Positions 9,253-12,558 of a stretch of DNA of 64,000 nt are shown piece after piece. This stretch comes from an uncultured Cellulophaga sp. (GTDB taxonomy: Bacteria > Bacteroidota > Bacteroidia > Flavobacteriales > Flavobacteriaceae), in assembly GCA_947492955.1 (NCBI GenBank), contig CANLOV010000002.1:434001-498000 (forward strand), in the 5' to 3' direction. Made by a program: the position numbers and the translations under genes. The notes beneath the pieces are model-generated. The model ran no database searches. It was not told the DNA's origin and worked only from the letters and a program-made list of their open reading frames with translations. The stretch's first letter is position 1. Each line of letters begins with the position of its first letter.

Positions 9253-9777
9253 TTATAGTATCATCCAATTAGATTTTAATACAGTATTTTCATTAACATA
9301 ATAAATCCTAATTTTTTTGTCATTTTCTGAAACCTTTAAAATTCTTATATCAATATTCATATCCATAATTTTCAACTTATATTTTGGACTTAATATATAT
9401 TCAATTTCATCATCTAAACAGTGCATACTAACAGGAAAAACAAAAGATTCTTTAATAGCTCCAGAATCTATCTTTTTAAATTTCCCTAAATTATTTTCCA
9501 CAAAAAAATAAGGAGTATTTAAATTTTTAAATTCCTTAAATGTTACTTCATTTAAAAATTTTTGCCGTTTAGAAAAACAACTAAAATCAAATAAAAGATT
9601 GGAATTCATTTTTATAGTATCATATACTTTCCCATGTAAAAACAACTTAAAATGAGCTGTATTTTTATCTTTTTTATTTTTTATTTTAATATTTAATATT
9701 TCATGAGAAGCACACGAATTAAATATTATAATATTAATTAATAACAGCAGTATAGTATAATACAAATTACTTCGCAT
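9253..9777 (-). CDS. Hypothetical lipoprotein
   Basis: The 174-residue protein begins with a signal peptide and a lipobox FNSCAS (Cys22). The mature part is lysine-rich and predicted mostly beta. No family was recognised. Its ATG overlaps the end of the upstream gene (9767-10153) by 11 bp, so the two are translated together. An overlapping pair of an unknown protein followed by a small lipoprotein is the layout expected of a secreted effector remnant plus envelope immunity protein, but nothing in the sequence proves this. Confidence 0.6.
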   Translation of the reverse strand: MRSNLYYTILLLLINIIIFNSCASHEILNIKIKNKKDKNTAHFKLFLHGKVYDTIKMNSNLLFDFSCFSKRQKFLNEVTFKEFKNLNTPYFFVENNLGKFKKIDSGAIKESFVFPVSMHCLDDEIEYILSPKYKLKIMDMNIDIRILKVSENDKKIRIYYVNENTVLKSNWMIL

Positions 9778-10153
9778 AAGTTCCGGATAATGTTCTTGTA
9801 TAATTTTCTAAAGTTTGTACTTTATATTCATCAGTTGTTTTATCAAAAGTAGGCGTTTTATGAATTTGAAAATGGAATGCTTTATTCTCTATTGAATTCT
9901 TAAAAGACGTTAACTTATCTAAATCAACTAACACTCCTCCAGTAAATTGCCTACCAATAGAATGTGCTTGATAATGATGATAAGCTTCATTTTTTATCGT
10001 ACTTCTTAAATTATAGTAACCATAAAAAATACCTTCTTTTCCTCCATTTGTTGTAAAATCAAGAGTAACTTGTTCTGAATTCATAAAAAGAAAAGCCTCG
10101 AAGCGTCTCGCTCGTACGTTACAGCATATATAGTTCATTAAAATTAACATCAT
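9767..10153 (-). CDS. Unrecognised protein, possibly a truncated C-terminal domain
   Basis: The frame encodes 128 residues. The first 23 (through NVRARRFEAFLF) lie in a GC-rich stretch that looks like non-coding or rearranged DNA, so an internal ATG at 10084 (MNSEQVTLDF) may be the true start. The remainder contains YHHYQAHSIGRQFTGGVLVD and a polar C-terminus (YTRTLSGTYAK). It has no signal peptide or membrane segment. No family was recognised. It could be the detached tail of a larger surface or toxin protein whose body has been lost, followed by its lipoprotein partner. Confidence 0.45.
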   Translation of the reverse strand: MMLILMNYICCNVRARRFEAFLFMNSEQVTLDFTTNGGKEGIFYGYYNLRSTIKNEAYHHYQAHSIGRQFTGGVLVDLDKLTSFKNSIENKAFHFQIHKTPTFDKTTDEYKVQTLENYTRTLSGTYAK

Positions 10154-10180: not shown

Positions 10181-10399
10181 TCAAAAACCAGATAACATAA
10201 CCCCACAAACACCTAAGCTTATTAGTAAATAAACCCCTGCTAGAATAAATAATATTTTAGCTATTTTCTTTTTCTTATTATACAAAATAGCTCCTATTAT
10301 AAGAAATAGTATTGCAGGGCCAAACATAATAAGTCCAAAAATTAAAAAAAGCCCATCAAGACCTCCTCCCGTAAACTCTAATGGTATAGCATTAATCAT
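10181..10399 (-). CDS. Small two-helix membrane protein, unknown
   Basis: This 72-residue protein has two hydrophobic helices (about residues 15-40 and 48-70) separated by the basic turn YNKKKKIAK, placing that turn in the cytoplasm. The family is unknown to me. It follows the radical SAM gene by 19 bp in the same direction, so it is probably the last gene of the Lgt-like/radical SAM operon. It could be a small membrane partner of those enzymes. A near-palindrome rich in A/T at about 10153-10171 may end the transcript. Confidence 0.6.
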   Translation of the reverse strand: MINAIPLEFTGGGLDGLFLIFGLIMFGPAILFLIIGAILYNKKKKIAKILFILAGVYLLISLGVCGVMLSGF

Positions 10400-10418
10400 A
10401 TCGTTTTACTTTAAGTTA

Positions 10419-11813
10419 TTACGAATATTCTTCTTGTAATTCTTTTAAACGCTCTATTTTTTCGTCCCTATAAAACAAGTTCATAGTTTCAAAAGGAATA
10501 ATTTTATAATCTTTATTTACAATGTGCACACACGATTTTTTTATGGCACGTACATCAAAATTATGCGCATCTATAAATTGCATTATTATAATCCTAAATA
10601 AATTATCGTATCCTAAATTGGGTGCGTCTATCTCTGGCAAGCAACACATAATACTTTTTAAATTCTCCGATGCTTTTTCTACAGAATTACCTGTACTAAA
10701 GAGTTCTATCATTTTACCATGCAACTCCTCGTCTTGTTCATAAATAATAGTGTTTTTGCCCTCGTTTAATAAATCGTCTGGGTTAATATAACGAGTTAAA
10801 GGGCTTACTTCTTCTCCTAACTTTAAAGCATAAGCCATTACTAAAGCATCTGGATTACAGGGTACCGGAATTAAATCGTCTGATTCAAAAATAGGTGACT
10901 GTTCTAATATTTTTCTACGAACTTCTGTTAATGTAATTCTATTTTCATCGGCTTCAAAATTTTCTAATCGTCCGGCAATTTGCGTAGGCTGAAAGGTTAC
11001 TCCACGCACACATTTTTGTTGTAAAGCAAAATCTATGGTATCGCCCATTTCATCATCATTTAACCCTTTTTGAAGCGTAACTACCAATGTGGTAGATAAA
11101 TTTACCTTGTTTAAGTGCTCTAAAGCTTTTAAGCGTACTTCTGCTAAATCGGCACCACGTAAGGTTTGTAAAACCTCATTTCTAAGAGAATCGAACTGTA
11201 AATAAATTTCAAAATCGGGCATATACCCTGCCAAGCGTTTTGTAAACTCTAAATCCTTAGAAATTTTAATTCCGTTTGTATTGATCATAATATGCCTTAT
11301 GGGTAAACTTTTGGCATAATCTAAAATTTCGAAAAATTGCGGGTGTATGGTAGGTTCTCCTCCACTAATTTGTACTACATCTGGTTCTCCTTCATTTTTA
11401 ACAATAACATCTAGCATTTTCTTTATTTCTGCTAATGTTCTATGCCTTCCGTAATGTGGTGATGAGGATGCATAACAGGTAGGACAAGTAAGATTACAAC
11501 GATCGGTAACTTCTATAATGGTTAAACAAGAATGTTGCTCATGATCTGGACACAAACCACAATCATAAGGGCAACCATAATGGGTTTTTGTATTAAATGT
11601 TTTTGGGTATTCCGATGCTTTATTATAATTACGAATGTTTTTGTAGTATTCTATATCATCTGCAATTAACACTTTAGATTTTCCGTGCTCTTTACAATTT
11701 TTAAGCATATATACCTTATCGTTTTCAAAAACAATTTTGGCATCTACACGCCGTAAACAGTCTGGACAAAGGCTTAATGTAAAATCATAATAAGTGTAAT
11801 TTTTTGTAGACAT
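10419..11813 (-). CDS. Radical SAM enzyme of the Tes/MJ0619-like family
   Basis: From the ATG at 11813 the protein has 464 residues; a TTG two codons upstream is less likely. The N-terminus has a rubredoxin-like knuckle (CPDC at 16-19, then CKEHG at 40). Next come Cys81, Cys85 and Cys88 (GCPYDCGLCPDHEQHSC) and the radical SAM CxxxCxxC as CNLTCPTC (106-113), then ISGGEPT for SAM binding. This cysteine layout is that of MJ0619 and the tetraether-lipid synthase Tes, which join or modify lipid alkyl chains. The upstream gene overlaps it and encodes an Lgt-like lipid transferase. A lipid substrate is therefore likely, but the reaction is unknown. Confidence 0.85.
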   Translation of the reverse strand: MSTKNYTYYDFTLSLCPDCLRRVDAKIVFENDKVYMLKNCKEHGKSKVLIADDIEYYKNIRNYNKASEYPKTFNTKTHYGCPYDCGLCPDHEQHSCLTIIEVTDRCNLTCPTCYASSSPHYGRHRTLAEIKKMLDVIVKNEGEPDVVQISGGEPTIHPQFFEILDYAKSLPIRHIMINTNGIKISKDLEFTKRLAGYMPDFEIYLQFDSLRNEVLQTLRGADLAEVRLKALEHLNKVNLSTTLVVTLQKGLNDDEMGDTIDFALQQKCVRGVTFQPTQIAGRLENFEADENRITLTEVRRKILEQSPIFESDDLIPVPCNPDALVMAYALKLGEEVSPLTRYINPDDLLNEGKNTIIYEQDEELHGKMIELFSTGNSVEKASENLKSIMCCLPEIDAPNLGYDNLFRIIIMQFIDAHNFDVRAIKKSCVHIVNKDYKIIPFETMNLFYRDEKIERLKELQEEYS

Positions 11814-12558
11814 AAGCAATTGCTTTGTAGATAGTTTTTAAGTAATATAACCAACAAATTAAGCATAAATATTGAATGCTACTTAATCCTAACAAAAGAA
11901 ACTCATTTGGCTTTATAAATTCTATTACAAAACGAAACAAAAAATAGCTCAGCATAAAAATCTTAAAAAGACTGCCGCTAGGCAATGGATTTCTATTTTT
12001 CTGTAGCTTCATTATAAATATAAATAGTATTACACCAAAGACTACTTCGTATAAGGCAATGGGATGCCTATTAATACCATCTCCCAAATCCATTCCCCAA
12101 AAAGAAGTAGTGGCAGTACCATAAGTAAACTCTTTTATCCCTGCTAAAAAACAACCTATACGACCAATAATAATTCCTAAGATAATGGGTAATGTAAATA
12201 AATCTCCCGAAGACTGTTTTTCTCCAATCATCTTTTTTATTAATTCTACCCCTATGAGTCCTCCAAAGAGTCCGCCCATTATGGTTTTATTATTTAAAAT
12301 AGATAGCCAACCTTGGGAATAATGTAAGACAGGGTTTTCTAAAAAAGCTATGAAACGAGAAAAAAATAAGGCGCCAAATATAGCCCCTATAATTATGGAA
12401 AGCCTATTGTTAGATGATATGGTATCTTTTGCTTTCTTCCTTAAAAAAACATAGTATCTAAAGGCTACAAAAAACGCTGCGTACTCTAATACTAAATGCA
12501 AATTAACTTTTATACCAAACAGTATGGGTTCGTATGGAATTACAATTGATAAATCCAT
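11785..12558 (-). CDS. Lgt-like prolipoprotein diacylglyceryl transferase family protein, atypical
   Basis: The 257-residue protein has about seven transmembrane helices and the Lgt landmarks GGLFGGLIG (95-103) and HPIALYE (165-171). The hallmark Lgt motif, normally close to GRxGNFxNxE, reads GRIGCFLAGIKE (132-143), replacing both conserved Asn residues. Lgt moves diacylglycerol from phosphatidylglycerol to lipoprotein cysteines. These substitutions suggest a specialised paralogue rather than the housekeeping enzyme. It overlaps the EnvC-like gene upstream by 19 bp and the radical SAM gene downstream by 29 bp, so all are tightly coupled. Confidence 0.82.
   Translation of the reverse strand: MDLSIVIPYEPILFGIKVNLHLVLEYAAFFVAFRYYVFLRKKAKDTISSNNRLSIIIGAIFGALFFSRFIAFLENPVLHYSQGWLSILNNKTIMGGLFGGLIGVELIKKMIGEKQSSGDLFTLPIILGIIIGRIGCFLAGIKEFTYGTATTSFWGMDLGDGINRHPIALYEVVFGVILFIFIMKLQKNRNPLPSGSLFKIFMLSYFLFRFVIEFIKPNEFLLLGLSSIQYLCLICWLYYLKTIYKAIAYVYKKLHLL

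Follow-up and report, generated by a model that had tools for sequence, protein, structure and literature searches.

A conserved gene trio linking a divergent Lgt paralogue, a Tes-like radical SAM protein and a Cys-tailed membrane protein: a possible protein-lipidation system

Background

The lipobox of bacterial lipoproteins belongs to an N-terminal signal and places a small residue (G, A or S) at position -1 of the cysteine, and Lgt works on the periplasmic side of the membrane.

The essential residues of E. coli Lgt are Y26, H103, R143, N146, G154 and R239, although some Lgts have Y, W or F at the position of H103 (PMC13251419). In the MYXO-CTERM/myxosortase system, the C-terminal Cys is invariant and adjoins a helix, and its lipidation has been predicted to depend on an as yet unidentified Lgt-like enzyme (PMC11980579). 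The archaeal radical SAM enzyme Tes (tetraether lipid synthase, also GDGT-MAS or MJ0619) couples lipid chains between Csp3 carbons and acts on free lipids. Its rubredoxin site is printed as C9X2C12X20C33X2H36, and Tes crystals from E. coli contained two ordinary phospholipids (PMC9433317). The activity of the bacterial homologues of Tes is called unconfirmed in print (PMC11868695).

The locus analyzed here contains relatives of both enzymes next to a small membrane protein that ends in a cysteine. Its parts belong to known superfamilies, and in the open-access literature we found no described system in which an Lgt relative, a radical SAM enzyme and a Cys-tailed membrane protein come together; in two of four papers that use both "diacylglyceryl transferase" and "radical SAM" (PMC8939145 and PMC7641849), the terms occur in unrelated contexts.

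Composition and surroundings of the locus

The three genes lie on the minus strand of a 64,000-nucleotide stretch of DNA (the window) from an uncultured Cellulophaga sp., whose genome is available as 3.87 Mb in 57 contigs. They are lgtL (11785..12558), for a divergent Lgt paralogue of 257 aa; the gene of a Tes-like radical SAM protein, here called rSAM (10419..11813), of 464 aa when counted from an ATG that has an alternative TTG start two codons before it; and the gene of a small two-helix membrane protein of 72 aa (10181..10399), which is the proposed lipidation substrate. The overlap between the first two genes in the original prediction, which had been made from the letters of the window, measures 29 nt (11785..11813), and the small membrane protein that it placed after rSAM corresponds to the 72-aa ORF. 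A further ORF of 128 aa (9767-10153, minus strand) begins 27 nt past the small-protein gene on the same strand.

Upstream of the trio, the window carries two genes, one M23/EnvC-like and the other of the DUF4292 type, from which an association with cell-wall genes had been predicted. Neither gene was detected in the best 80 of 574 related loci (tblastn, E 1e-3; flanks of up to 6 kb), and we reject the cell-wall link as a feature local to the window. In the same best 80 of 574 loci (L004-L083), genes named by eye as tRNA-dihydrouridine-synthase-like and LepA-like occur near the trio in 54 and 40 cases, respectively; these loci represent many Flavobacteriaceae, and the trio of the window sits at another place.

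Conservation and co-inheritance of lgtL and rSAM

Our surveys covered one scan of genome contigs, 296 genomes of the phylum and, for other phyla, plasmid records. The contig scan confirmed 574 stretches, of which the best 80 serve here as the related loci; the named relatives among them are mostly Flavobacteriaceae (Bacteroidota). In all 80 of these best loci, LgtL and rSAM share a strand and LgtL comes first; the two lie within 1.3 kb of each other in 79, and in 67 LgtL runs on beyond the point where the rSAM match begins, as counted without regard to kinship. Among the 296 genomes, rSAM (E <= 1e-20) was found in 26 and LgtL (E <= 1e-25, a threshold chosen to separate it from canonical Lgt) in 25, with two genomes having rSAM only and one having LgtL only, such that 24 of the 27 genomes with either gene have both (Fisher p 6e-32, kinship ignored). 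A search for the Zn_ribbon_HMPTM domain placed the same 26 of the 296 genomes above its cut-off. The co-occurrence persists in two genomes (G034 and G272) where the genes are on separate contigs. Conservation counts of this kind exclude chance, and because the pair is both conserved and co-inherited, a dedicated system of LgtL and rSAM, as originally predicted, is very likely.

The pair also extends to actinobacterial records. Four LgtL matches were found in plasmid records (Persicobacter, M. branderi, M. avium and Nonomuraea), each adjoining an rSAM match. The Nonomuraea record (L138, NZ_LT559118.1) is labelled a plasmid and yet is chromosome-sized at 11.85 Mb, so its trio is probably chromosomal. 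Among the best 40 of 82 plasmid rSAM records, ten have matches that span at least 71% of the query; four of these lie beside LgtL and six are followed by a methyltransferase gene, in one case with a short hypothetical ORF intervening within the match. The latter six, on an M. vanbaalenii plasmid and in five haloarchaea (L139, L140, L141, L196, L197 and L198), pair rSAM with a SAM-methyltransferase and so represent another two-gene unit within this enzyme superfamily.

LgtL, a divergent paralogue of Lgt

LgtL carries the LGT domain of Pfam (86.4 bits, cut-off 24.9) and scores 49.1 bits against the NCBIfam lgt equivalog, under the cut-off of 118.9. Its predicted model is nearest to E. coli Lgt (5azb, TMq 0.56), the sole PDB match below E 0.001. 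The original prediction proposed looking for a separate housekeeping lgt, and the genome turned out to hold two further LGT-family genes with canonical sequences, which score 195 and 189 bits in comparison with 86 for the copy in the window. LgtL is therefore not the housekeeping Lgt, and we have rejected that assignment.

The altered hallmark motif, predicted as GRIGCFLAG, reads exactly so in LgtL. Within it, C136 (codon at 12151..12153) aligns with N146 of E. coli Lgt, a position where both canonical paralogues of the same genome have Asn. Equivalents of R143, G154 and R239 are retained in the alignment, whereas Y26 is replaced by H21, N146 by C136 and H103 by M94, the last pairing being dependent on a weak pairwise alignment. 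All 114 aligned rows have Cys at position 136 and 111 of them have His at position 21, at least 11 of the rows being second copies of the same place, and in a tree LgtL stands apart from canonical Lgt with support of 100/99 (21 versus 5 rows). The changes Y26H and N146C recur in MSMEG_5408, a second Lgt homologue of M. smegmatis whose activity as an Lgt is presumed to be low (PMC13251419); radical SAM is not mentioned in the main text of that paper.

These substitutions bear upon two different interpretations of the pair. Some Lgts with N146C function in part (PMC13251419), which would be in keeping with LgtL as an ordinary accessory prolipoprotein transferase that merely has an unrelated rSAM as its neighbour. 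We consider this extremely improbable, however, since the pair is co-inherited in 24 of the 27 genomes with either gene, the genome of the window already possesses two canonical lgt genes, and the tree splits LgtL from canonical Lgt at 100/99. The alternative at the other extreme is that LgtL may transfer nothing, because it has lost Y26, H103 and N146, none of which E. coli Lgt can do without. An altered or dead LgtL that has lost these three residues and kept two arginines might instead bind phospholipids and present their chains to rSAM, with the small protein as a docking adaptor and an unusual phospholipid as the product. We regard this modification of free membrane lipids as rather unlikely, and return to it below with the evidence from the other two proteins.

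The Tes-like radical SAM protein

In Pfam, rSAM scores 98 bits for Radical_SAM, where the cut-off is 29.5, and 70.6 bits for Zn_ribbon_HMPTM, where it is 27. Its best named sequence family is TrsS, a radical SAM (seleno)protein (NCBIfam NF045646), at 331.4 bits under a cut-off of 490, followed here by Tes at 293.7 bits under a cut-off of 450, and plain membership in either family is rejected on these scores. By sequence, the nearest solved structure is archaeal Tes/GDGT-MAS (7tol, E 1.2e-70). The predicted model of rSAM (pLDDT 78, with weak stretches at 107-120 and 373-394) is likewise nearest to Tes/GDGT-MAS (7tom, TMq 0.78), with MoaA as the runner-up at 0.43.

The metal-site motifs in the original prediction were borne out by the sequence. 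The rubredoxin-like knuckle (11685..11768) reads C18-X2-C21-X20-C42-X2-H45, with spacing equal to that printed for Tes. The motif CPYDCGLC (11550..11573) supplies C83, C87 and C90, which together with H93 correspond in the alignment to the N-terminal auxiliary cluster site of Tes (PMC9433317), and all three Cys of the radical SAM cluster motif CNLTCPTC (CX3CX2C; 11475..11498) are conserved across the 25 aligned rSAMs. The kinship with Tes that had been proposed for rSAM therefore stands with respect to the Tes-like fold and the pattern of metal sites, and falls short with respect to the family score (294 versus 450). Toward the C-terminal auxiliary cluster of Tes, with its labile Met, only residues 402-460 align, candidate Cys being C321, C392, C393 and C430, and ~110 Tes residues (chain 338-448) are unmatched in the sequence alignment. 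Column counts show the equivalents of C83, C87 and C90 to be missing in the LgtL-linked rSAMs of Mycobacterium, Nonomuraea and genome G096, for which reason the chemistry of rSAM may vary between loci.

A phylogeny with Tes, which the original prediction also suggested, separates 21 LgtL-linked rSAMs (G034 and G272 included) from one Tes and three rSAMs linked to methyltransferases by a branch supported at 91/86, in a tree that is unrooted and has long branches. Unlike Tes, rSAM is associated with LgtL and with a small protein. The lone rSAM of the genome survey that scores above the NCBIfam Tes cut-off (493.8 versus 450; genome G066, locus L122, 8864-10321) has no LgtL beside it, and the only Lgt match in that genome is of the canonical type and on a different contig; in the same phylum, this protein may produce lipids that span the membrane. 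Unlike the six TrsS-like plasmid rSAMs examined, rSAM of the window is not followed by a methyltransferase gene.

Because the model of rSAM is nearest to the structure of Tes, a lipid or lipid-linked substrate, as originally predicted, is plausible. The same resemblance, to an enzyme that acts on free lipids, favours the modification of free phospholipids introduced above. It speaks against a role of rSAM in peptide maturation, peptide maturases such as SkfB (TMq 0.36) ranking far below Tes. Since rSAM has no evident TM segment, it should be cytosolic and would be unlikely to reach a cysteine in the periplasm.

The small Cys-tailed membrane protein

In all 80 of the best 80 of 574 loci, rSAM is followed by at least one small membrane ORF whose final 22 residues include a Cys, when such ORFs are defined by at least two hydrophobic segments (from a simple hydropathy window rather than a trained predictor) and a position within 800 nt past rSAM. 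By non-overlapping ORF calling, 98 of 100 nearby small ORFs, from 76 of these best 80 loci, end in a helix, G-x-C and a short tail; in the window protein the motif is G-V-C (G63, C65; 10205..10213), as located by alignment of relatives. Within this set from the best 80 of 574 loci, residue -2 is G in 98 of 98 tails of the form G/S/Y/A-x-C, 3-13 residues follow the motif, its Cys is the only one in 78 of the 98 proteins, and residue -1, which is V in the window protein, is I or V in 75. With a Cys near the C-terminus and mostly I or V rather than G, A or S at -1, the small proteins depart from the lipobox rule for substrates of signal peptidase II.

The topology of membrane proteins follows the positive-inside rule. 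The loop that precedes the last helix averages 3.9 K/R and 0.18 D/E over the 98 proteins (loci again from the best 80 of 574), and 89 of the 98 tails lack K/R; because the loop is basic and the tail mostly free of K/R, the Cys is expected on the outer face of the membrane, where Lgt is active. The last helix with its Cys resembles a lipoprotein signal, the cysteine being predicted to face the periplasm. There is a published precedent in MYXO-CTERM for the idea of a lipidated C-terminal cysteine, although not for the system: there, the Cys precedes the helix, the tail is Arg-rich and a CPBP protease cleaves (PMC11980579), whereas the small proteins have their Cys after the helix and a mostly uncharged tail, and do not qualify as MYXO-CTERM.

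In distant lineages, Actinobacteria among them, a similar helix-x-C ending occurs on otherwise dissimilar proteins. Of 17 such sequences, chosen by hand for having a Cys and hence informative on context and not on frequency, 12 have G at position -2, four have S and one has Y, and the stretch before the last helix is net positive in 16. The window protein stayed below every Pfam cut-off, as did six distant small proteins. Among control small ORFs with at least two TM segments, a Cys was present within the last 20 residues in 5 of 19 and G-x-C in none of 19; when start codons were called more loosely, 7 of 12 carried a Cys within the last 22 residues and 2 of 12 G/S/Y/A-x-C. From these small control sets, a bare C-terminal Cys is not rare, and the motif is.

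A Cys-tailed small protein is encoded in 22 of the 25 genomes that have both enzymes (the 24 of the survey plus G096, in which rSAM adjoins an LgtL of weaker score, E 2.5e-22); the copy in G212 is on a different contig. The small-protein profile found no match in the six searched genomes of the same family that lack rSAM, and no second small protein in the genome of the window (E 1.3e-25 for the window copy, 0.058 and 0.19 for the next matches). Beyond the pair of the original prediction, the system therefore has a third conserved member in the small membrane protein.

The tail has consequences for the alternatives. Modification of free lipids alone leaves unexplained why a terminal x-C after a helix is the one feature common to dissimilar small proteins, and also why two or three tandem copies are present in 19 of the 76 loci (from the best 80 of 574); the conserved G-x-C tail argues for protein lipidation rather than free-lipid modification alone. 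Tandem, diverged small proteins beside rSAM do have the look of precursor arrays, from which one could imagine that rSAM cross-links the Cys of a small-protein precursor and that LgtL anchors or moves the product. With the Cys predicted to be periplasmic and rSAM to be cytoplasmic, and with Tes as the best structural match, we think such a peptide modification improbable.

Some genomes depart from the usual composition. In G034, with lgtL and rSAM on different contigs, no Cys-tailed small protein was found near either gene (a 40-aa ORF ~5 kb from lgtL is regarded as noise); the presence of both enzymes there, with the small protein near neither, favours an action on free lipids. In G121 and G156 the place of the small protein is occupied by ICMT-like and DUF4395 genes. 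A variant cluster (L120, 8486-11733; L121, 3435-6625) encodes an rSAM with 38-40% identity, an ICMT/PEMT-like methyltransferase, a DUF4395 protein with a Cys-rich end and an LgtL with the motif GCFF-x-GCCYG. G017 has an LgtL in the absence of rSAM and the small protein; it is on a long branch, retains C136, has what was read by eye as Q at the position of H21, and may be a decaying orphan.

A possible route of protein lipidation

Our preferred interpretation, which we hold tentatively and with somewhat less than even confidence, is that LgtL, rSAM and the small protein form one dedicated protein-lipidation system. LgtL would bind a phospholipid by way of its retained arginines and move a diacylglyceryl-type group onto the C-terminal Cys of the small protein, whose last helix and basic cytoplasmic loop might mimic the n- and h-regions and the Cys of a lipoprotein signal sequence. 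Acting from the cytoplasmic side, before or after this transfer, rSAM might form a C-C bond or make a like change at an unactivated carbon in the acyl chains of the lipid handled by LgtL. This would yield a small membrane protein anchored by an unusual lipid, perhaps one whose chains are coupled. What the analysis documents is the order of the genes, their conservation and co-inheritance, the motifs, the Cys tail and the folds as predicted; the topology, the transfer to the Cys, the activity of rSAM toward acyl chains and the sequence of the steps are inferred.

The division of labour is suggested for LgtL by homology and topology, and for rSAM by its predicted fold: a cytosolic rSAM could reach acyl chains as Tes does, but would probably not contact the Cys, which is why we assign lipidation of the Cys to LgtL and remodelling of the chain to rSAM. 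A more specific version, in which LgtL adds diacylglyceryl to the Cys and rSAM joins its acyl chain to a second one so that a membrane-spanning or macrocyclic lipid rivets the protein in place, seems to us unlikely. Against lipidation in general we have counted the loss of three essential Lgt residues, the I or V at -1 that is unlike a lipobox, the lack of a small protein near the enzymes in G034, G121 and G156, the LgtL of G017 without rSAM, the absence of C83/C87/C90 in some rSAMs and the finding that a Cys near the C-terminus is not rare in the small control set.

Conclusions

Many carriers of the trio among the best 80 of 574 loci are named and described marine flavobacteria, and the system is therefore directly testable. 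If the proposal is true, bacteria would possess a lipidation route for C-terminal cysteines, Lgt paralogues that carry Y26H/N146C would have a role, and a part of the bacterial homologues of Tes would be explained.
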